Virus record (IMG/VR): IMGVR_UViG_3300046656_000525
Span: 1 to 41,514 of that record
DNA length: 41,514 nt
Reading direction: 5' to 3' (one strand)
Source of the DNA: a virus
In this document: piece after piece, positions 5,935-15,606 of the stretch
Layout: each line of letters opens with the position of its first letter
Position numbering within the stretch: the stretch's first letter is position 1
Made by a program: the position numbers and the translations under genes
The notes under the pieces: generated by a model
The model's input: only the letters and a program-made list of their open reading frames with translations
What the model was told of the DNA's origin: nothing
Databases searched by the model: none

Positions 5935-6505
5935 AACCGAACATGACAACCAAAGAGATAACAAATACCGACCCTATGAAGTCTGTAATATGTGCTCTGC
6001 ATGGACATTTATTAAATATTTCAGACCCGATTTCCCGCTTAATTCGGATGATCTCTATACCCAAGCTAACACGTCTAAAATGTGGGATTGGATTAAGGCG
6101 AACGTACCGGGGTCGAGTTGGATCAAGAACTTTTTCGATATCAAGTCGGCTAATCAGGTTTGGTGCGTAATCGAAAGGCTTATCGATATCCACTTGGCAG
6201 GCATTGGCGACTGCTATTTCAAGGGGATAAACAGTTATAAGCAAATTGAGACGGAAATAAAAGTCAATAAAAATCCCGTTATCGTCGGTACTTCATTGAC
6301 GGGCGCAGGACACATTATTGTAATTGTAGGCATAGAAGACTTTGGCGGGGATCCGAACAAGCAGGGATATTTCATTTGCCAAGATCCCTATGGGGATGCC
6401 AACACGAATTACGCTAATCCAGACGGGAAAGAAGTGCATTACACGTATAATTTTTTGTGGAATAAGATCTACAAAGATCGCGGGTTGTTTTTCAGGAAGA
6501 CTTAG
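5921..6505 (+). CDS. C39-like cysteine peptidase, probable endolysin
   Basis: 194 residues. The N-terminal stretch QRDNKYRPYEVCNMCSA matches the substrate-side motif of the C39-like peptidase family (Gln, then Cys22 as likely nucleophile). GAGHIIVIVGI carries the probable catalytic His131, and CQDPYGD the Asp155. These spacings and motifs are typical of papain-fold phage lysins and bacteriocin-type peptidases that cut peptide bonds in cell walls. There is no separate wall-binding domain and no signal peptide, so export would depend on the adjacent holin. It converges with the leftward operon, the two stop ends overlapping by 14 bases. Confidence 0.7.
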   Translation: MDLLKTEHDNQRDNKYRPYEVCNMCSAWTFIKYFRPDFPLNSDDLYTQANTSKMWDWIKANVPGSSWIKNFFDIKSANQVWCVIERLIDIHLAGIGDCYFKGINSYKQIETEIKVNKNPVIVGTSLTGAGHIIVIVGIEDFGGDPNKQGYFICQDPYGDANTNYANPDGKEVHYTYNFLWNKIYKDRGLFFRKT

Positions 6506-6713
6506 GCTTATCACTCATAAAATTAAGCCCTTCCGCTGTAATACGGCAAACTCTTTCATTGCCTTCTCGGCTGATTTCGACGATATATTCATTGCCGATC
6601 AGGTGCTTGTAAGTGCCTTCCTCATGTTGGTCGGATATCGTGTAGATGATGTGATCCGAGGCCATGTTTTCGAGCAGCATGTTATGCAAGAGTTGTTTCT
6701 GTTCATTTACCAT
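6492..6713 (-). CDS. Small protein, paralogue of its upstream neighbour
   Basis: 73 residues, last gene of the leftward operon, with a strong GAGGAGG ribosome site inside the end of the preceding gene. It begins MVNEQKQLL and aligns along its length with the first ~65 residues of the next gene (6714-7154): shared MVNE start, a Tyr-Ile-x-Glu-Ile-Ser strand and a C-terminal Thr-x-x-Gly. It probably arose by duplication. The alternating basic and acidic residues suggest a small winged-helix-like or beta fold; function unknown. Confidence 0.75.
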   Translation of the reverse strand: MVNEQKQLLHNMLLENMASDHIIYTISDQHEEGTYKHLIGNEYIVEISREGNERVCRITAEGLNFMSDKPKSS

Positions 6714-7154
6714 TTAAGCCTCCTCAATTGGTCCAAATGATTCGATGTAAGCATCCGTCATACCCTCTCGATTCAAGTAAAACTGAGCCCATTCAATTGA
6801 AACTTGCGAAATATCATTACTGCCATATTTCCAAGTGAACCAATTGCCATTCTTTGTCCGATAAAGGGCTTGCTCTGTCCTACATCGATTATTGTCATAA
6901 TAAATGACCAATTCCGATTTAGAAATATCATATAACTTGCCATCAAGTATTACCTTCGCTTTAGCGTGTAGTCGATGTTTACCCTTTTGCGTTAATTTAT
7001 ATACCCAAGGTTTTTTATCATAGCTGATTTCAATATAGTGTTTCGATAATAGAATTGTCCGTTCTGGATCATTTTCTTTAATTTCAATTCCATAATGATA
7101 TTCCGTCGCTGATGGGAAAAAGCGCTCAAGAAGTGCTCTATCCTCATTTACCAT
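6714..7154 (-). CDS. Unknown protein with duplicated N-terminal domain
   Basis: 146 residues. The first ~65 residues match the 73-residue neighbour. The rest adds a domain rich in Tyr and Trp (KNGNWFTWKYG) with a predicted beta-rich fold. The gene overlaps the membrane-protein gene upstream by 11 bases, so all are translated from one mRNA. No family recognised. Given the operon position opposite the replication genes, host takeover or lysogenic-conversion functions are possible but unproven. Confidence 0.75.
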   Translation of the reverse strand: MVNEDRALLERFFPSATEYHYGIEIKENDPERTILLSKHYIEISYDKKPWVYKLTQKGKHRLHAKAKVILDGKLYDISKSELVIYYDNNRCRTEQALYRTKNGNWFTWKYGSNDISQVSIEWAQFYLNREGMTDAYIESFGPIEEA

Positions 7155-7482
7155 TTATAACTCCATGTTGTTCTATTTGTAACAAAAGCCATCCGAGTTG
7201 TTGCCGTGCCTCGCTAGCCATTTTAACCACTGCACTTAAATCGCATGTATCAACCCGATCCAGACTGCCCTTTAAGTACGAAACTGTCGTCCGCGCATTA
7301 AGAAGAGGCTGTTCCATTTGGCTCAATTTTAAGATTTGCTCCCCATCTTTTTCCATGCGTGTAATGCCGTACCACACCACACCGCCGAGAGTTAGTGAAA
7401 GCACTATTATAATGCTAATCAATACCCAAGCGAGTCGCATAAACCAATGGCGAGCGTATTCATAATCGAGATATTTAATCAT
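7144..7482 (-). CDS. Membrane-anchored small protein
   Basis: 112 residues with one strong transmembrane helix (about residues 17-40: WVLISIIIVLSLTLGGVVWY) after a short basic N-terminus, followed by a helical, charged outer or periplasmic part of about 70 residues. Topology is that of an inner-membrane anchored protein with its bulk outside. ATGA overlap with the preceding gene. It could be a Rz-like or superinfection-exclusion protein. Neither has specific support. Confidence 0.7.
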   Translation of the reverse strand: MIKYLDYEYARHWFMRLAWVLISIIIVLSLTLGGVVWYGITRMEKDGEQILKLSQMEQPLLNARTTVSYLKGSLDRVDTCDLSAVVKMASEARQQLGWLLLQIEQHGVINGK

Positions 7483-7661
7483 TCGCTTGGCCCCTTATAG
7501 TTATCAAGTGTGTGTTGGCTTGCTTCCGTCAATGTTTCGTAATCGTCTTCAATCGGCTTTGGTTGGCGCTTATTAATCACGGCACGGCTTGCCACGTCTG
7601 AGCCGAAATACTGCTTGTAATATTCGTGGCGCCGTTGACGGTCTTCTTGTGTATCAGTCAT
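7479..7661 (-). CDS. Small hydrophilic protein of unknown function
   Basis: 60 residues from the ATG at 7661, preceded by AAGGA; the frame stays open to 7712, but no ribosome site supports that earlier start. Begins MTDTQEDRQRRHEYYKQYFG, very charged and helical. No motif recognised. It overlaps the membrane-protein gene by ATGA, so the two are likely translationally coupled. Confidence 0.6.
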   Translation of the reverse strand: MTDTQEDRQRRHEYYKQYFGSDVASRAVINKRQPKPIEDDYETLTEASQHTLDNYKGPSE

Positions 7662-7722
7662 AATATAATTCCTTATCGCCCACCACATACGCGACGAGCG
7701 AAGTGTATGCAAGATATTTTTC

Positions 7723-7887
7723 TTACTTCTTTACCCCACCACAAGGTGAGGTCTCTGTTTTATCAGAGCAGGCTATATCGGCCAGTAGTGTTTCTAAAAA
7801 GCGATCGACCTTTTGGGGGTCTGGGTTTTCGATGGATTCTTCTAAAATCATAGTCGCTTCTATGTTGTTAATTTCATGTTGAGTCAT
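7723..7887 (-). CDS. 54-residue acidic protein of unknown function
   Basis: A short gene with AAGGAGA upstream of the ATG at 7887, ATGA-coupled to the preceding stop, and ending in CGGVKK. It is acidic and helical and contains the segment NPDPQKVDRFLETLL. Start, ribosome site and coupling make it a convincing gene despite its size. About 60 bases without a gene separate it from the next one downstream. No function suggested. Confidence 0.65.
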   Translation of the reverse strand: MTQHEINNIEATMILEESIENPDPQKVDRFLETLLADIACSDKTETSPCGGVKK

Positions 7888-8183
7888 AGTGTTTCTCCTT
7901 GCCCAGATTGTTCGGTTTTATCGAAAAAATCTTTAATCATTTTTCGTCCTTCTGCAACAATTTGATTGCCATCAGCTGGGATATCCCATGTAAAATGAGG
8001 ATTGGCAAGGCAATGCAATTTATCAAATATTTGCAACATCGCTGTCTTAAGAGCAGAATTAGACGATTCATATTTCAAGCGGATATCAAGCATATGTCGT
8101 TCATGTTCCATTTTATCCAATTCTATCTGCCGAAAATTTGCTTGCACGTTCCTCACGACGTCCAATCCATCATTGCGTGCCAT
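7884..8183 (-). CDS. Helical protein, paralogue of the 8170-8538 product
   Basis: 99 residues with a CGGAGG ribosome site. The central and C-terminal parts match the next protein: AMLQIFDKL against AMLEIFAKM, then a Pro/Asp stretch, then EGRKMIKDFF against DGEKMVKEYF. The N-terminal half is a probable coiled coil. The pair looks like a tandem duplication. No enzymatic motif; function unknown. Confidence 0.7.
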   Translation of the reverse strand: MARNDGLDVVRNVQANFRQIELDKMEHERHMLDIRLKYESSNSALKTAMLQIFDKLHCLANPHFTWDIPADGNQIVAEGRKMIKDFFDKTEQSGQGETL

Positions 8184-8538
8184 TTTCGCCTCCGGTAAGT
8201 TTGAAATATTCTTTAACCATTTTTTCGCCGTCGGAAAAAATATCTAAAACAGACTCAACTTCACACATATCCCCGTAGCTTATATCATCTGGAAGTGTAG
8301 GCAAGCTGCTGATCTTATTTTTCATCTTAGCGAATATCTCTAACATGGCTTTCTCGGTTATGGCGTTATGCTCTTTGAGACTTGCAAAATCAGTATATAT
8401 CTGGTTAAGCTCAGCCTTAAGAGCTCTTTCATAATTACATTGGGCGTCGCAAACGTGCTTTTTATTATGCTCAGATTTTGGCAAGTATTGTATTTTCGAA
8501 CCATTGGGGGAAATTAGATTATGTGGGTCTTTATCCAT
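8170..8538 (-). CDS. Helical protein, paralogue of the 7884-8183 product
   Basis: 122 residues, sharing the AMLxIFxKM...KMxKxxF core with its downstream neighbour. It has an extra N-terminal part containing a CDAQC motif near residues 30-34 that its paralogue lacks. Its start lies within the end of the preceding gene. Function unknown; conservation of two diverged copies suggests a real interaction surface. Confidence 0.7.
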   Translation of the reverse strand: MDKDPHNLISPNGSKIQYLPKSEHNKKHVCDAQCNYERALKAELNQIYTDFASLKEHNAITEKAMLEIFAKMKNKISSLPTLPDDISYGDMCEVESVLDIFSDGEKMVKEYFKLTGGENGTQ

Positions 8539-8743
8539 TATCTACCTTCTTTTTCGCCTGACTCTTTGTCCAAGCCGTGAAATATGCCAAGAATTGCTTC
8601 TCGGTTAGCTCTAGTTGCCGATATACGAATAGCTGAAAATCAGTCATTGACTTGATCTTCATGCCGCGGGATCCCGCTTCTTCTTTGATGTTCTCAAATT
8701 GAGCTTCGCTAACGTAAATAGCACAGCCTTGGTTTCTTTTCAT
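8531..8743 (-). CDS. Possible ribbon-helix-helix-type regulator, first gene of leftward operon
   Basis: 70 residues. A short beta strand (AIYVSEAQF) followed by two amphipathic helices (IKEEAGSRG and DFQLFVYRQLEL) loosely resembles CopG/Arc-type DNA-binding proteins. It lies directly behind a promoter whose -10 ends six bases before the ATG, so its mRNA would be leaderless or nearly so, as for some phage repressors. AGG directly before the ATG is too close to act as a normal ribosome site. The regulatory role is inference from position and weak fold resemblance. Confidence 0.55.
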   Translation of the reverse strand: MKRNQGCAIYVSEAQFENIKEEAGSRGMKIKSMTDFQLFVYRQLELTEKQFLAYFTAWTKSQAKKKVDNG

Positions 8744-8749
8744 GCCTAA

Positions 8750-8778
8750 AAACTAACACCGATAGCCCGAATCGTCAA
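8750..8778 (-). promoter_or_regulatory. Leftward sigma70-type promoter (leaderless candidate)
   Basis: On the minus strand, TTGACG (8778-8773), a 17-base spacer, then TAGTTT (8755-8750). Transcription would start at about 8743, the A of the ATG. The end of the spacer, TCGGTGTTA into the -10, is identical in position to that of the rightward promoter. Confidence 0.6.
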
Positions 8779-8882
8779 GCATTAATTATAAAAAATCGTG
8801 CTTTTTGTAGTACCTTCTATTATATAGCGTTTCAAAATCGCTCACTTTTTCTCTTTTGCACTAAAAAAATAGTGAAAACCAC

Positions 8883-8911
8883 TTGACGCCGATCGGATTC
8901 GGTGTTATATT
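8883..8911 (+). promoter_or_regulatory. Rightward early promoter
   Basis: TTGACG (8883-8888), 17-base spacer, TATATT (8906-8911). This is the best promoter in the divergent region and heads the recombination/replication genes. The spacer contains the palindrome CCGATCGG and the TCGGTGTTA motif shared with the leftward promoter, a plausible common operator. Confidence 0.75.
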
Positions 8912-8957
8912 TCTTTTATCAGGCTTTAGGGCCTTAATCAAAAATAAGGATTTGAAA

Positions 8958-9197
8958 ATGAACTTCGATTTTGTTAAATCAATCAAAAACGGCGAAACGC
9001 ACAAAGAAGCCCCTGTGTGTGGGGATGGAATCGCTGAATATAATACCGATGATGGCGTTATCGAATATTGGGCGGTTGAGGCTGGTCAGGCCGCTGATTT
9101 CGTCCAATGGCTTAAAGATGGTGAAAACATGGATGAATCACGCCATCAGATTTCTGGGTCTTACCCTTACTTCTATCGTGAGAATGTGACCGCGTAA
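8958..9197 (+). CDS. First rightward early protein, unknown function
   Basis: 79 residues from an ATG with AAGGA upstream. The frame is open back to 8883, but that would start on the promoter -35, so the later ATG is chosen. The protein starts MNFDFVKSIKNGE and is acidic and soluble. As the first gene behind the strong early promoter, it may act at once after infection. No family recognised. Confidence 0.7.
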   Translation: MNFDFVKSIKNGETHKEAPVCGDGIAEYNTDDGVIEYWAVEAGQAADFVQWLKDGENMDESRHQISGSYPYFYRENVTA

Positions 9198-9255: not shown

Positions 9256-9411
9256 ATGCTAAAACAATTATGGTTTTGGTTTAAAGTCCGCTTGCTGGTG
9301 AGACGATTGCGAAAACTGCATAAATCGCAACTTGATAAAATGTGCAAAATAAAAGACATGGCATCATATTATTGGATCGAAAGTGAGGCTAATAATGGAA
9401 TCGAAAGCTGA
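9256..9411 (+). CDS. Small basic protein of unknown function
   Basis: 51 residues, AAAAGGAA ribosome site, rich in Lys, Arg, Leu and Trp (LWFWFKVRLLVRRLRKLHK), forming an amphipathic basic helix. Its 3' end overlaps the ERF gene start, indicating coupled expression. It may bind membrane or nucleic acid; no evidence decides. Confidence 0.55.
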   Translation: MLKQLWFWFKVRLLVRRLRKLHKSQLDKMCKIKDMASYYWIESEANNGIES

Positions 9412-10237
9412 GTTAATCCCAATAGAAAATCCCAAGGCTGCCATGATTCGAGATTTAGCCAAGTTTCAGGGCCGAGTTTCGATTGCTGAAAAAGACGAAA
9501 TCAATCCGCATTTTAAAAAAACATACGCGACCCTTGCAAGCTATGTCTCTGCGATACACCCACATTTAGAAGAGTGTAATCTGGCTTATACCCAGACGAT
9601 AGAAGGGACCAAACTTGTTACGACTCTTTGGCATACGAGCGGTGAGTCAATCAAATCTGAGTGCGAGTTAATCGGTGCGCGCCAAGACCCCCAAGGAATT
9701 GGATCGGCTCTTAGTTACTATCGTCGATATCAATTGGCTGGAATCTTAGGCATGGCAGCGGCTGATGATGATGGAAACGAAGCGCAACCGAAGCCAGTGA
9801 AAACTAAAGCCGAAAAGCAACAGGGCTACAAAGATTACAAAAATGGCCTGCCAAGCGCTGAGGTATTGGCTAAAGCTAAGGCGGATAATGACGCGCCACC
9901 TTGGAACGAAGCGGAAGGCGAAAAAGCTGACCTATTTGACAAAGTCACTCAGACCGAAAATCAAATCGCTGCAATAGTCGGCTTTAACTCTGCTGATTTT
10001 AAGAAAACCTGCGCTCTGCTCTATAACCGACATAACGCTAATTGCGCTGATGGCGAGAAAACAGGCAATTGGAAAATGGCATTGGCTTCAGCTGAGGCGC
10101 TATTAAAGGTCGCTAAGACTTATATACCGCCCACCCCCGCTAAATCGCAAGCACCTGAAGACACTGATTTCAAATCAGCTAATCCTATTCCAGCTCAGCC
10201 AGAGCTATTAAAACAAGGAGATTTAACACATGGGTAA
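9395..10237 (+). CDS. erf: ERF-family single-strand annealing protein
   Basis: 280 residues from the ATG at 9395, behind GTGAGG. The N-terminal 130 residues carry the ERF signatures: NPHFKKTYATL (about 37-47), TTLWHTSGESIKS, and PQGIGSALSYYRRYQLAG (about 99-116), ending in an acidic ADDDGN. ERF proteins bind and anneal single-stranded DNA for phage recombination and genome circularisation. The C-terminal half is Ala/Lys-rich and variable, as in relatives. It sits directly behind the early promoter together with the Gp157-like gene, a common recombination pair. No partner exonuclease was recognised in the genome. Confidence 0.9.
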   Translation: MESKAELIPIENPKAAMIRDLAKFQGRVSIAEKDEINPHFKKTYATLASYVSAIHPHLEECNLAYTQTIEGTKLVTTLWHTSGESIKSECELIGARQDPQGIGSALSYYRRYQLAGILGMAAADDDGNEAQPKPVKTKAEKQQGYKDYKNGLPSAEVLAKAKADNDAPPWNEAEGEKADLFDKVTQTENQIAAIVGFNSADFKKTCALLYNRHNANCADGEKTGNWKMALASAEALLKVAKTYIPPTPAKSQAPEDTDFKSANPIPAQPELLKQGDLTHG

Positions 10238-10391
10238 TCGAATACGGAAGTGGATAATTATAATTTGTGCTGGGGTCGCCTTTATAGCACACGGCTTAAC
10301 GGCCGAATCGGAAATATGGCGCTATGTTTTTGGTTTTAGCATTGGCCTTTTGGTCAGTATAGCATTAGGAATTGAACAGGAGAAAGAATAA
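10230..10391 (+). CDS. Small two-helix membrane protein
   Basis: 53 residues, with AAGGAG upstream of its ATG, which lies within the end of the ERF gene. It has two hydrophobic segments (about 7-24 and 31-47) and charged ends. It is coupled to the next gene by a TAATG overlap. Small membrane proteins in early operons often affect host physiology or superinfection; no specific role can be assigned. Confidence 0.65.
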   Translation: MGNRIRKWIIIICAGVAFIAHGLTAESEIWRYVFGFSIGLLVSIALGIEQEKE

Positions 10392-10843
10392 TGGAAGATT
10401 TTAAAGTATTTCCAGAGGACATCCAATGGAATCCCGAGACAGGAGAAATCATCGAAACCCCACAATCGGACTATCCCGAGCAGCTGGGCCGAGCCTACAT
10501 GAATCACTCTTTTTTCGGCGACTTATTGGACGCTGAACTAGAACGGCTCAAAGCTCGCAAGGCAGCCAATGAAGTACGGAAAGACAAGCTGAAATTAGAA
10601 CTGGATCGAGTAATACCAGAAGGGGCCAATCTGAAACGCCCTGAGCTTGGATTTACGATTTACCGATCTAAGTCTGAATCAGTGCGAGTTGTGGATGAAA
10701 GCGCTATCCCTGCTGATTATTGGCGGGTCAAGACAGAGCGAGCTTTGGATAAAAACATGGTTAAGCAACAACTCAAAGACGGGCTGGACGTGAATGGCTG
10801 TGAGCTTGATGTTAAGGACAACTTGATTATCAAGCGGACTTGA
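10391..10843 (+). CDS. Gp157-like early protein
   Basis: 150 residues. The C-terminal half matches the siphovirus Gp157 family pattern: a basic helix, then GFTIYRSKSESVRVVDES, AIPADYWRVK, LDKNMVKQQLKDG and a final GCELDVKDNLIIK. The N-terminal part carries a helical, Lys/Arg-rich segment as in the family. Members sit beside ERF or RecT genes, and one has been linked to phage resistance in Streptococcus; the biochemical role is unsettled. Position directly after ERF fits. Confidence 0.75.
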   Translation: MEDFKVFPEDIQWNPETGEIIETPQSDYPEQLGRAYMNHSFFGDLLDAELERLKARKAANEVRKDKLKLELDRVIPEGANLKRPELGFTIYRSKSESVRVVDESAIPADYWRVKTERALDKNMVKQQLKDGLDVNGCELDVKDNLIIKRT

Positions 10844-10866: not shown

Positions 10867-10904
10867 AGCGCCTATGAATCTTTGGTTTGTGGGCGCTATT
10901 TTTA
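10867..10904 (+). terminator. Possible terminator hairpin
   Basis: AGCGCC (10867-10872) and GGCGCT (10892-10897) form a 6-bp stem with a 19-base loop, followed by ATTTTTA. It overlaps the leader of the next gene, whose AGGAGG starts at 10904. Weak; partial attenuation is possible. Confidence 0.4.
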
Positions 10905-10914
10905 GGAGGTATTT

Positions 10915-11121
10915 ATGATTTTTTTCTGCCAAAACCTAAAATGCAACTTCTACGCCATGTGGGAATGCGAGCGCTGTGGTTGTAAAACCTGCAATAAGCA
11001 CTTCGCGTCTAAAATGCCCTTGCTTTGCGAGTGGTGTGCGCGTGGCGAACGAGAAGACTGGGAAGATAAGCGAGCTAATGGACGAGAGAAGGTCGAAGAG
11101 ATGGAGGCCGAAAATGGCTAA
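10915..11121 (+). CDS. Cys-rich zinc-binding mini-protein 1
   Basis: 68 residues behind a perfect AGGAGG. Cysteine pairs CQNLKC, CERCGCKTC, then His in NKHF, and CEWC give a cross-brace zinc-finger pattern similar to B-box or AN1-like fingers. The tail is acidic and charged. First of six consecutive Cys-rich genes, overlapping the next by 8 bases. Zinc binding is inferred from Cys/His spacing; target unknown. Confidence 0.75.
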   Translation: MIFFCQNLKCNFYAMWECERCGCKTCNKHFASKMPLLCEWCARGEREDWEDKRANGREKVEEMEAENG

Positions 11122-11323
11122 TGGAATAATTGAATGTACATATTGTAAAAATGATGCGGATTACAAATGCGATGGATGCGGTTATCATATTTGCAGATTT
11201 CATTCAAATTGCAATTCAACTCGATGGGTTCTACACAATCTTTGCCGCGGGTGCTTTAATGAATGGGAGAATATGAAAAAAGCGGAAGTTAAACGGCTTG
11301 CGACAACAGAGAGGGGGGAATAA
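11114..11323 (+). CDS. Cys-rich zinc-binding mini-protein 2
   Basis: 69 residues from the ATG at 11114; the frame is open to 10976, but this ATG has GGAGG upstream and follows the overlap pattern of the array. Motifs: CTYC, CDGCGYHICRFHSNC, then CRGC. Same arrangement as protein 1, with His residues in the third pair, so the two are likely paralogues. The C-terminal tail is Lys/Glu-rich. Confidence 0.7.
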   Translation: MANGIIECTYCKNDADYKCDGCGYHICRFHSNCNSTRWVLHNLCRGCFNEWENMKKAEVKRLATTERGE

Positions 11324-11324
11324 A

Positions 11325-11516
11325 ATGGCTAATTGTAAATGCAAAGATAAATATTGTGGCAACTGTCATGGCTGCGGTATTAAGGTCCGTTGGTGTATGG
11401 ATGATTGTGTGTTTGTGGATATGAGCGGATTTGGATTGGACGCGATGGCTTATTGGTGCAAAAAATGCTGGTCTGAAATTGAAAAAGAGAGTGAGGGAAA
11501 AAATGAAAAAGAATAA
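11325..11516 (+). CDS. Cys-rich zinc-binding mini-protein 3
   Basis: 63 residues starting MANCKCKDKYC behind GAGGGGGG. About eleven cysteines: CKC, CGNCHGCG, WCMDDC and WCKKCW. The start MAN and its DNA context resemble protein 2, suggesting duplication. Its end overlaps the next gene by 14 bases. Enough cysteines for two zinc sites. Confidence 0.7.
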   Translation: MANCKCKDKYCGNCHGCGIKVRWCMDDCVFVDMSGFGLDAMAYWCKKCWSEIEKESEGKNEKE

Positions 11517-11706
11517 TTGGATTTGCGGGGATTGCAGGGAGAGTATCCCAAAAGGCAAAGAAGTTTATTTAGAGAGCCTTATAATATGCCAAGGATGTAA
11601 TCAAGAATATCATCAAGAGTATTGGGACTCGAAGGAATCTTTAGGCGCATCTTCCAAGATAGAACAAGAACAAATGACGGAAGAAATAGAAAGTGAGGAC
11701 GAATAG
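11503..11706 (+). CDS. Cys-rich zinc-binding mini-protein 4
   Basis: 67 residues from the ATG at 11503 behind GTGAGGG. CGDC near the start and CQGCNQEYHQEYW later form a CxxC-CxxC-His pattern, like RING or PHD-type half sites. The acidic tail ends in SEDE, the same ending as protein 5, and the 20 bases across this stop and the next start are repeated exactly at the next junction. Confidence 0.7.
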   Translation: MKKNNWICGDCRESIPKGKEVYLESLIICQGCNQEYHQEYWDSKESLGASSKIEQEQMTEEIESEDE

Positions 11707-11918
11707 ATGAAGCTCTTATGCTACGGTTGTGGGGCGCAAGCCGTTTATCAATGCGATTCTTGTCTTAACTTCATTTGCGAAGCGGATACAATCATATTGG
11801 AAGGCGCTTTTAGTTGCTGTCATCTATGCACAGAGGTTATTTCTGATCATAGAAAAAGTTTGGGAAAGGAAACAAAATCAGCGCCCCTAACCCAAAAAAG
11901 TGAGGACGAATAGATGAA
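11692..11918 (+). repeat. Exact 20-base direct repeats at gene junctions
   Basis: The same 20 bases lie at 11692-11711 and 11899-11918. Each covers the last codons of one gene (SEDE), its stop and the ATG of the next. A second repeat, AAAATCAGCGCCCC, lies at 11874-11887 and 12087-12100. Together they indicate tandem duplication of a gene-sized unit of about 207-213 bases. Confidence 0.8.
11707..11913 (+). CDS. Cys-rich zinc-binding mini-protein 5
   Basis: 68 residues. CYGCGAQAVYQCDSC, then FICEAD, and CCHLC give the same cross-brace spacing as proteins 1 and 2. The tail ends KSEDE, as in protein 4 (ESEDE). The ribosome site is the GTGAGGACG inside the preceding gene. Likely a zinc-binding adaptor; partner unknown. 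Confidence 0.7.
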   Translation: MKLLCYGCGAQAVYQCDSCLNFICEADTIILEGAFSCCHLCTEVISDHRKSLGKETKSAPLTQKSEDE

Positions 11919-12084
11919 AAGCTGTTGGTGCATTTTCGCATTCCATAAATGTCAACACTGTAAAAAATGGATTTGTGAAAAACATGGGGTCTATCACAAA
12001 CATTTATATGGTCGTAATAAAAGCGGCTGGATTTGTTTTAATTGTGAAGAAAGACATTTTGGTTATGATGGGCCAGATTGTTAA
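11914..12084 (+). CDS. Cys-rich zinc-binding mini-protein 6
   Basis: 56 residues starting MKSCWCIFAFHKCQHCKKWICEK. CxC, CxxC, C and CFNC cysteines with several His give a B-box-like pattern closely similar to proteins 1, 2 and 5. It ends the array; a promoter and the replication gene follow. It has the same ribosome site repeat as protein 5. Confidence 0.7.
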   Translation: MKSCWCIFAFHKCQHCKKWICEKHGVYHKHLYGRNKSGWICFNCEERHFGYDGPDC

Positions 12085-12147
12085 ATAAAATCAGCGCCCC
12101 CCGAATCTTTGGCTAAGGAAAACCAAGAGGATAATGATTTAGGGGGC

Positions 12148-12176
12148 TTGACTTTTTGATTAAGCTGGATTAGCTT
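12148..12176 (+). promoter_or_regulatory. Promoter for the replication gene
   Basis: TTGACT (12148-12153), 17-base spacer, TAGCTT (12171-12176), 18 bases before the ATG at 12195. The first bases, GGCTTGACTTTT, are repeated at the antirepressor promoter (18565 on). Just upstream GCCCCC (12096-12101) can pair with GGGGGC (12142-12147), a possible end for the Cys-rich operon. Confidence 0.6.
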
Positions 12177-12194
12177 TACATCAAGGATTTCATT

Positions 12195-13643
12195 ATGAAC
12201 AATACTAACACAATTCTACCTTCGCGTCAAGTGGAGGGCAATTTTATTATGCAACCCGTCTCCGTTATAGATCAAAAGGTCTATCAACACCTTCCAAAGG
12301 GCTGCTCACAACTTTACGAAACACTCAAGACCTTTGATTACGCAAACCGTAAGGGTTATGTCTGGCCTACAATAGAAACATTGGCAGCACGTCAATTTGT
12401 ACACCCGAACACGGTAAGGACGCGGTTAAAAGCCCTTGAAAAAGCTGGCCTTATCCAGCGCGAACGCGTGGCGGGTCGGCAAGACAATTGGTTTTTTTGT
12501 AACCCCCAACCTTCATCGTCTCCTATAACAACGCACGTTAGACTTGTTAAGGCTAACGCAGCGGACGAGGCTAGCCCCGAGGTAAATCACTCGATTACTA
12601 GACAGAGTATGCCTTTTCCTCGGGCTAGTTTGGAGATTAAGCCAGATAAAAAAGCATACCCTAACAATTCTCGATCACTTCCGCCTGCAGAAATTGTAGG
12701 GGGGGGTAACAAACTGCCTGTTAGAGGGGGCTACAATACGGGTGTTCACGAAGAAGAAGAAGCTAAGAATAAAAATATAAATAATCAAATCAATGTAGCT
12801 AATCATTCACACCTAGGAGGTCTAGGGGGAGAACAACAACTAATCGACCTTGGTGATTTTAAGCCATTGCAAATCGAATCGCCTGTTCAAACTGTTGCAA
12901 AAACTGCAACGGTTGACGTTGCACCTGTGGGAACTGATTTGAGTGATTATAAATCTTTTCTTAGCTCAAAGTTCGACCGTCAAAAGGTCACGGATAAGCT
13001 ACTCGATTTGATCGATGATGACTTCAAAGCCAATGCTAAAAACGCAATCACGACACTGCACAATCAGAAAAACCATTTAGCTTTATTCCCAGTCTCGCTT
13101 TGCCGATATTTACGGGACAATCTTGGGAAAATCAATAACAAGTCAGCCTATATCTATGGGGCGCTGACTAACCCAGAGAAATACGATATGATTGTTACCG
13201 CAGCGAGTCAACTTGATACCGCTTGGCGGATTGAGTATGCTGATACAAAATATCTTAAAAGACAACAAGATCATTGGCGATCGATATCGCTTGATAACAC
13301 GCCATATTCAGCCGAAGAACTGGAAGAGAAGACCCGATTCCATGCGAAATTACGGGCTGACATTGCCGCCAAAGCTGGGAAACTGGACATGTTTGACAAA
13401 GACGGTAAACTTGACATGCGTACCCCCCGCCCGAGAGGCTTAACTGAACGTGAATGGTGTCAACAAAATGGCTGGGAATATGATGAGTGGTATAAGACGA
13501 ACCATGACGGCAAAGATTGGCGAGAAGAGCAGAAAAAAATTGATGATTTGGTTCGTAAAGCTGGCGGCCAAATTAATATTCGAGATGATCGAGAAGATAG
13601 TTTATTTGCAAAATTGGGGGCTGGCTATGATATGTCAAATTGA
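12195..13643 (+). CDS. Winged-helix replication initiator-like protein
   Basis: 482 residues. The N-terminal region (about 25-95) is a winged helix-turn-helix: GYVWPTIETLAARQFVHPNTV, then TRLKALEKAGLIQRER, as in phage replication proteins of the O/DnaD-like class. A low-complexity linker (about 110-250, Pro, Gly, Asn and Glu rich) separates it from a helical C-terminal region with several Trp and basic residues. Such proteins bind the origin and recruit the host helicase or loader. It has its own promoter. No polymerase, primase or helicase was recognised, which supports the host-dependent initiator idea. The origin may lie inside this gene (see the inverted repeat at 12890). Confidence 0.7.
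   Translation: MNNTNTILPSRQVEGNFIMQPVSVIDQKVYQHLPKGCSQLYETLKTFDYANRKGYVWPTIETLAARQFVHPNTVRTRLKALEKAGLIQRERVAGRQDNWFFCNPQPSSSPITTHVRLVKANAADEASPEVNHSITRQSMPFPRASLEIKPDKKAYPNNSRSLPPAEIVGGGNKLPVRGGYNTGVHEEEEAKNKNINNQINVANHSHLGGLGGEQQLIDLGDFKPLQIESPVQTVAKTATVDVAPVGTDLSDYKSFLSSKFDRQKVTDKLLDLIDDDFKANAKNAITTLHNQKNHLALFPVSLCRYLRDNLGKINNKSAYIYGALTNPEKYDMIVTAASQLDTAWRIEYADTKYLKRQQDHWRSISLDNTPYSAEELEEKTRFHAKLRADIAAKAGKLDMFDKDGKLDMRTPRPRGLTEREWCQQNGWEYDEWYKTNHDGKDWREEQKKIDDLVRKAGGQINIRDDREDSLFAKLGAGYDMSN
12890..12914 (+). repeat. Inverted repeat inside the replication gene, candidate origin site
   Basis: AACTGTTGCA (12890-12899), loop AAAAC, then TGCAACGGTT (12905-12914): ten paired positions with one T-G wobble. 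It is followed by GACGTTGCACC, a partial third copy of the core. It lies in the linker-coding part of the initiator gene, where lambda-like phages keep their origin. Confidence 0.45.
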
Positions 13644-15418: not shown

Positions 15419-15606
15419 AAGCTGATAAAAATGTGCTATTGGTCCTCAAAGGCCCCCGAACCGAAACGGAAATCTTGGCTGAGCTTAAGAAGTACTACGA
15501 CAAAGAGTTTAGCTTGGCGGACGTTGTTTTAGAGTACCAAGGTCCAGTCGAATATGAAGGGTATATTAAAGCCAATGAAACTATCGTATACGAGGCGGGA
15601 GAATAA
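15415..15606 (+). CDS. Small acidic protein of unknown function
   Basis: 63 residues, ATGA-coupled to the preceding gene, acidic with a helix-strand pattern (TETEILAELKKYYDKEFSL). No motif recognised. TAATG overlap with the next gene. Confidence 0.65.
   Translation: MKADKNVLLVLKGPRTETEILAELKKYYDKEFSLADVVLEYQGPVEYEGYIKANETIVYEAGE

Follow-up and report, generated by a model that had tools for sequence, protein, structure and literature searches.

Six consecutive tiny Cys-rich phage genes as a possible cassette array of zinc-folded adaptors

Blocks of tiny genes within phage early regions represent a long-standing gap in knowledge. The nin region of phage lambda is a block of small delayed-early genes beside the replication genes and is dispensable for plaque formation (PMC10695390). 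Small zinc proteins are also known from phages. Com of phage Mu is a small zinc-finger protein that takes part in countering restriction (PMC6483171), and a small phage zinc protein is known to reprogram the host RNA polymerase (PMC9239242). Here, we describe a run of six tiny Cys-rich genes between recombination and replication genes; our literature searches turned up no description of such phage arrays.

The window, that is, the whole stretch of DNA that was analysed, is a complete virus record from IMG/VR and is 41,514 bases long. A simple ORF chooser, rather than a trained gene finder, yielded 66 predicted genes. Six consecutive ORFs of 68, 69, 63, 67, 68 and 56 amino acids occupy positions 10915–12084 of the plus strand, with intergenic gaps, from gene 1 to gene 6, of −8, +1, −14, 0 and 0 nt. 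All six are preceded by a Shine-Dalgarno ribosome-binding site (SD). Cys accounts for 45 of their 391 residues (11.5%), versus 128 of 10,940 (1.2%) in the 60 other predicted genes. At least two CxxC pairs are found in seven of the 66 predicted genes, and the probability that six of those seven would be consecutive is 5 × 10−6. The earlier note on this DNA had described six consecutive tiny Cys-rich genes of 56–69 residues located between Gp157 and the replication initiator. The tiling, the SDs and the Cys enrichment indicate that this array is real, and its placement is confirmed by profile matches. Upstream, on the plus strand, are ERF, a Rad52-like annealing protein (9383–10237), and Gp157 (10391–10843; PF05565, E-value of 5 × 10−15), and downstream on the same strand is an HTH_36 / O-like replication initiator (12195–13643). 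GC content spans 0.34–0.48 among the genes of the array. Codon statistics did not set the coding frame apart for several of the six genes and are uninformative on translation, so we infer that the genes are translated from their SDs, tight tiling and homology. A further small Cys-containing gene at 15606–15956 matches several PHROGs of unknown function.

A terminator-like hairpin with a 14-bp stem and an ATTTTT tail lies on the plus strand between Gp157 and the array (10867–10897, z of −5.24). A scan of the whole genome returned only three other strong terminator-like candidates on this strand. With this hairpin in front of it, the array is probably expressed apart from the upstream genes or at a lower level than they are. 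A possible terminator-like stem also follows the array (12091–12151, plus strand, fold z of −1.75). Both flanking stems contain GAATCTTTGG, which occurs in the genome only at 10876 and 12103; this similarity of the flanks is suggestive only, with 22 of 738 other genome pieces scoring as well.

The array proteins have their ligands in common and little else. In genes 1, 2, 5 and 6, the ligand order is C-x2-C-x7-C-x2-C-x4-C-x2-[H/D]-x(n)-C-x2-C; the first pair is lengthened in gene 1 and shortened in gene 6, and gene 5 has Asp instead of His. All six genes are on the plus strand. Gene 1 (10915–11121, 68 aa) has a C-x4-C first pair, an AGGAGG SD and a moderately acidic tail. Gene 2 (11114–11323, 69 aa) has the canonical cross-brace order, followed in its structure model by a C-terminal helix. 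Gene 3 (11325–11516, 63 aa) contains nine Cys in a variant spacing, and gene 4 (11503–11706, 67 aa) has a single C-x2-C-x17-C-x2-C site formed by Cys residues 8, 11, 29 and 32. Gene 5 (11707–11913, 68 aa), with Asp as its sixth ligand, is 37% identical to a 66-aa phage protein across 40 residues, and gene 6 (11914–12084, 56 aa) has the cross-brace order and lacks a long tail. The cross-brace-like order of CxxC pairs and His proposed at the outset thus holds for genes 1, 2, 5 (with Asp) and 6, but not for the variant gene 3 or for gene 4 with its four Cys only. The statement that most of the proteins have an acidic tail was too strong. Tail net charges for genes 1 to 6 are −4, 0, −3, −10, −1 and −3, making the tail strongly acidic only in gene 4, and four of the six proteins are acidic overall.

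To find relatives, we scanned viral contigs with degenerate DNA patterns for the cross-brace ligand order and discarded the many out-of-frame matches as chance. The in-frame relatives that the scans returned number about 20 and come from diverse phages; ligand conservation among them is partly imposed, as the scan pattern fixed the spacing. A profile HMM-type search with 23 phage relatives and no window sequence (profile A3) matched gene 2 (E-value of 1.2 × 10−8), gene 6 (7 × 10−5) and gene 1 (1.9 × 10−4), each of which beat the best of its 300 composition shuffles. Gene 5 scored weakly, and genes 3 and 4 had no match. Shuffles with fixed Cys and His had a higher mean score than full shuffles and a few of them beat genes 1 and 6; the profile A3 signal is thus to a large extent the ligand spacing itself. 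This independent profile supports genes 1, 2 and 6 as predicted zinc-binding, cross-brace-like small proteins, and ligand spacing supports gene 5 as a predicted cross-brace-like small protein.

The AlphaFold2 model of gene 2, made with 14 aligned sequences, reaches a mean pLDDT of 80, with values above 90 in the core. Its first Foldseek matches were a piggyBac cross-brace, the PML B-box and FYVE, with E-values of 0.12 or worse. VIA-align related the same predicted model to FYVE and Rab-effector zinc domains with Z up to 4.8, including FYVE chains at Z 3.4–4.6, and the best PDB sequence match of profile A3 was the Vps27 FYVE domain (E-value of 0.0011). Each of the Foldseek, VIA-align and profile-PDB matches is weak alone, and they agree on a predicted cross-brace. 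The structure model supports gene 2 as a FYVE/B-box-like cross-brace. We assigned no fold to gene 3, whose model was too weak (pLDDT 69) and which lacked a profile A3 match. A two-zinc cross-brace fold is predicted to be common to at least three of the array genes, a number that probably rises to five when ligand order is taken into account. The description of the array as zinc-binding cross-brace-like proteins can therefore be retained for genes 1, 2 and 6 by profile, for gene 2 also by model and for gene 5 by spacing, but not for gene 4, which is of a single-site type.

Known families added little. None of the six genes matched a Pfam or NCBIfam family at cut-off or had a convincing match in PHROGs. 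Searching phage sequences by tblastn with genes 2 and 6 gave chance-level matches only, phmmer searches of the PDB with genes 2, 4 and 6 gave nothing significant, and Rfam returned nothing at gathering scores in the window. Gene 1 reached 10.1 bits against lambda NinD (Pfam gathering score 35) and 14.6 bits against metallothionein (gathering score 23). Gene 4 had sub-threshold matches to Prok-RING_1/PHD (17.4 bits for Prok-RING_1, gathering score 29.1) and to DksA/TraR. The gathering score of the B-box family PF00643 was unmet by any of the six. Scans with the array-region DNA, Gp157, the initiator and the terminase detected no relatives of this phage, in collections that may omit near records.

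Most of the records behind the relatives of the array proteins contain one match and a few contain several. Multi-copy sets were found in at least four phages, the window included, and this recurrence raises the interest of the array above that of its first description. The matching arrays in other phages that the earlier note had suggested looking for comprise eight genes, about 40 genes and about ten domain matches. In a 60,980-bp record (IMGVR_UViG_3300000317_000001), eight consecutive tiny Cys-rich genes are packed into 1.3 kb, and an SD-like sequence precedes most of them. At this locus (6132–9084), the Cys-rich array lies directly downstream of genes for QueD, QueE and GTP cyclohydrolase, which suggest 7-deazaguanine base modification. 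The gene order in this genome is zinc gene, exonuclease, Sak4 annealase, primase/helicase, Que genes and zinc array. A second record (IMGVR_UViG_3300038416_000116; 54,333 bp) encodes about 40 tiny zinc genes with an LCCxLN motif near the start followed by CxxC-x4-Cxx[C/H]. Some 15 of these lie at 22.3–25.9 kb and more at 41–54 kb; 46 ORFs fit the loose motif, some probably by chance. Members of this set that were tested had no significant PHROGs match, and the one tested by tblastn against phages gave nothing significant. For a phage of 54 kb, this family is very large. The third record (IMGVR_UViG_3300033155_001115) has about ten domain matches, several of them weak, at 11.5–25.4 kb, and many small LCCLVN-type genes are scattered over the same region. 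In a set of genome contigs (loci L018–L060, Acidobacteriota among them), many Acidobacteriota genomes encode a conserved small protein of the form CSICxEPS...CTKDxCxNH...CSDCCxC, whose first six ligands are in the same order.

Our preferred explanation, to which we give a probability of roughly 0.5, is that the six genes, sited among the recombination and replication genes of a tailed phage, are a cassette array of tiny zinc-folded adaptors used for host takeover or counter-defence. A two-zinc cross-brace domain of about 45 residues, together with a short charged tail, is predicted for three of the genes and, on their ligand order, probably for five, and all six form a tight operon-like block behind the terminator-like hairpin. 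The zinc core would serve as a scaffold, and its variable surface would let each gene product bind a different protein partner from the host (or the phage). Early in infection, the gene set would act in taking over the host or in countering its defences. Such an early adaptor role against the host is suggested by the fold, by how far the copies have diversified and by how many there are. The initial idea of rapidly evolving adaptors, possibly with anti-defence functions, is kept in this conditional form; none of the six genes matched known anti-phage defence proteins in PADLOC at an E-value of 0.01 or better. Two of the proteins fit the adaptor reading poorly, namely gene 6 with its basic core (net +7) and gene 4 as another type of protein. 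In addition, single-copy relatives often adjoin recombination exonucleases, which would also fit a role in recombination or on DNA.

Such an accessory role in recombination or DNA binding is the main rival to adaptors. The proteins would bind DNA or the annealing, exonuclease or initiator proteins of the phage, aiding recombination or replication. The location of the window array between ERF-Gp157 and the initiator is consistent with this, as are the zinc genes around the exonuclease, Sak4 annealase and primase/helicase of the 60,980-bp phage, and the top Foldseek match, the piggyBac cross-brace domain, is titled DNA-binding. Moreover, six relatives carry the phrog_1218 exonuclease, and in five of them no more than 2.5 kb separates it from the zinc gene. 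Three of these five records are alike in layout or protein, however, so they amount to only about three independent cases. The acidic character of four of the six window proteins also argues against accessory factors, and sets of six, eight or about 40 diverged copies are not readily explained by one role. On balance, we regard the accessory role as unlikely.

An improbable alternative is that the proteins modulate the host RNA polymerase like TraR or lambda Orf73, to which gene 4 is nearest in zinc-site spacing. The TraR zinc site has the spacing C-x2-C-x17-C-x2-C (PMC9239242), the same as in gene 4, and this gene also has weak DksA/TraR matches. These matches are far under cut-off, though, and gene 4, in which only MKKNNWI precedes the first Cys, is without the acidic helix found at the N terminus of TraR. 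The other five genes are of a different type.

The junctions between the genes bear on how the array arose. The earlier note had reported exact 20-base junction repeats and interpreted them as marks of recent duplication. An exact pair does exist and is 22 nt long. One copy (11690–11711, plus strand) spans the end of gene 4, the SD and the start of gene 5, and the other (11897–11918, plus strand) spans the end of gene 5, the SD and the start of gene 6; the two are identical at 22 of 22 nt. The junction repeat itself encodes the SEDE ends of genes 4 and 5. Among the genome repeats reported (at least 18 nt), it is the only exact pair of at least 20 nt, and it was found in none of the other viral contigs. 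A second pair, identical at 17 of 18 nt, has one copy inside the tail of gene 5 (11870–11887, plus strand) and the other after gene 6 (12083–12100, plus strand). Another repeated SD/start boundary occurs elsewhere in the window (6703–6723 and 7144–7164), before two minus-strand genes that both start with MVNE.

A recent tandem duplication of one gene would account for the exact repeat, for the similar unit lengths of about 200 nt and for the starts of genes 2 and 3, which are 70% identical across 50 nt. Yet in their interiors, the gene 5 and gene 6 units resemble each other no more than shuffled DNA does (z of 0.84, p of 0.22), so recent duplication is not supported. Pairwise DNA scores between the genes are low and their GC content is unequal, and we consider duplication very improbable as the origin of the array. 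As the boundaries are kept while the interiors differ, cassette exchange at stop-SD-start junctions looks like the better fit, on the basis of two repeat pairs in one genome. Genes may have been gained and swapped at these conserved boundaries, possibly with the aid of the ERF recombinase that the phage itself encodes; recombinases of the ERF type join diverged sequences (PMC3945230).

Metal or redox buffering of the metallothionein kind, or a functionless ORF artefact, is hardly credible: the high Cys content and the sub-threshold metallothionein match of gene 1 would agree with it, but the ordered ligand spacing common to other phages, the fairly confident predicted fold of gene 2, the SDs and the tight tiling all speak against it.

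Extending the adaptor explanation to the other multi-copy sets, we tentatively suggest, with the odds leaning somewhat against it, that unrelated phages independently built such arrays as diversifying binders of host proteins, swapped singly at conserved start/stop boundaries. The six genes of the window would then be a small case and the 54-kb phage, with about 40 genes, an extreme one. The compact zinc scaffold, recognisable by its ligand spacing and single in about 20 diverse phages, defines a testable family. Should the diversified copies each recognise a different host protein, the arrays would offer ready-made sets of probes for host targets, defence proteins among them. The conserved boundaries would make gene-by-gene cassette exchange directly testable.

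Among known systems, the FYVE domain of Vps27 (PDB 1vfy) has a two-zinc cross-brace and a CxxC-x4-Cxx[C/H] core like those predicted here, and aligns with the gene 2 model at a VIA Z of 4.6 and an rmsd of 2.1 across 48 residues. Unlike FYVE domains, all six array proteins lack the lipid-binding motif R(R/K)HHCR, and they are phage-encoded and without a FYVE match at the Pfam cut-off. B-boxes (PF00643, PF22586) have the same C-x2-C-x7-C-x2-C-x4-C-x2-H spacing, and several of the phage relatives have sub-threshold B-box matches. The last ligand pair of B-boxes is of the His type, whereas in the array it is C-x2-C after a longer loop. The piggyBac transposase cross-brace domain (5lme) is the top Foldseek match of gene 2, albeit at an E-value of only 0.12, and belongs to a transposase. 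The nin region of lambda likewise is a block of small genes adjoining replication genes, but the array has no significant NinD match, and we know of no cross-brace gene array in the nin region. TraR and lambda Orf73, of the DksA family, are small zinc proteins of phages or plasmids with a spacing identical to that of gene 4; they differ from it in their N-terminal acidic helix and from the other genes in ligand order. Mu Com, like the predicted array proteins, is a small phage zinc-finger protein; its target is mom mRNA.
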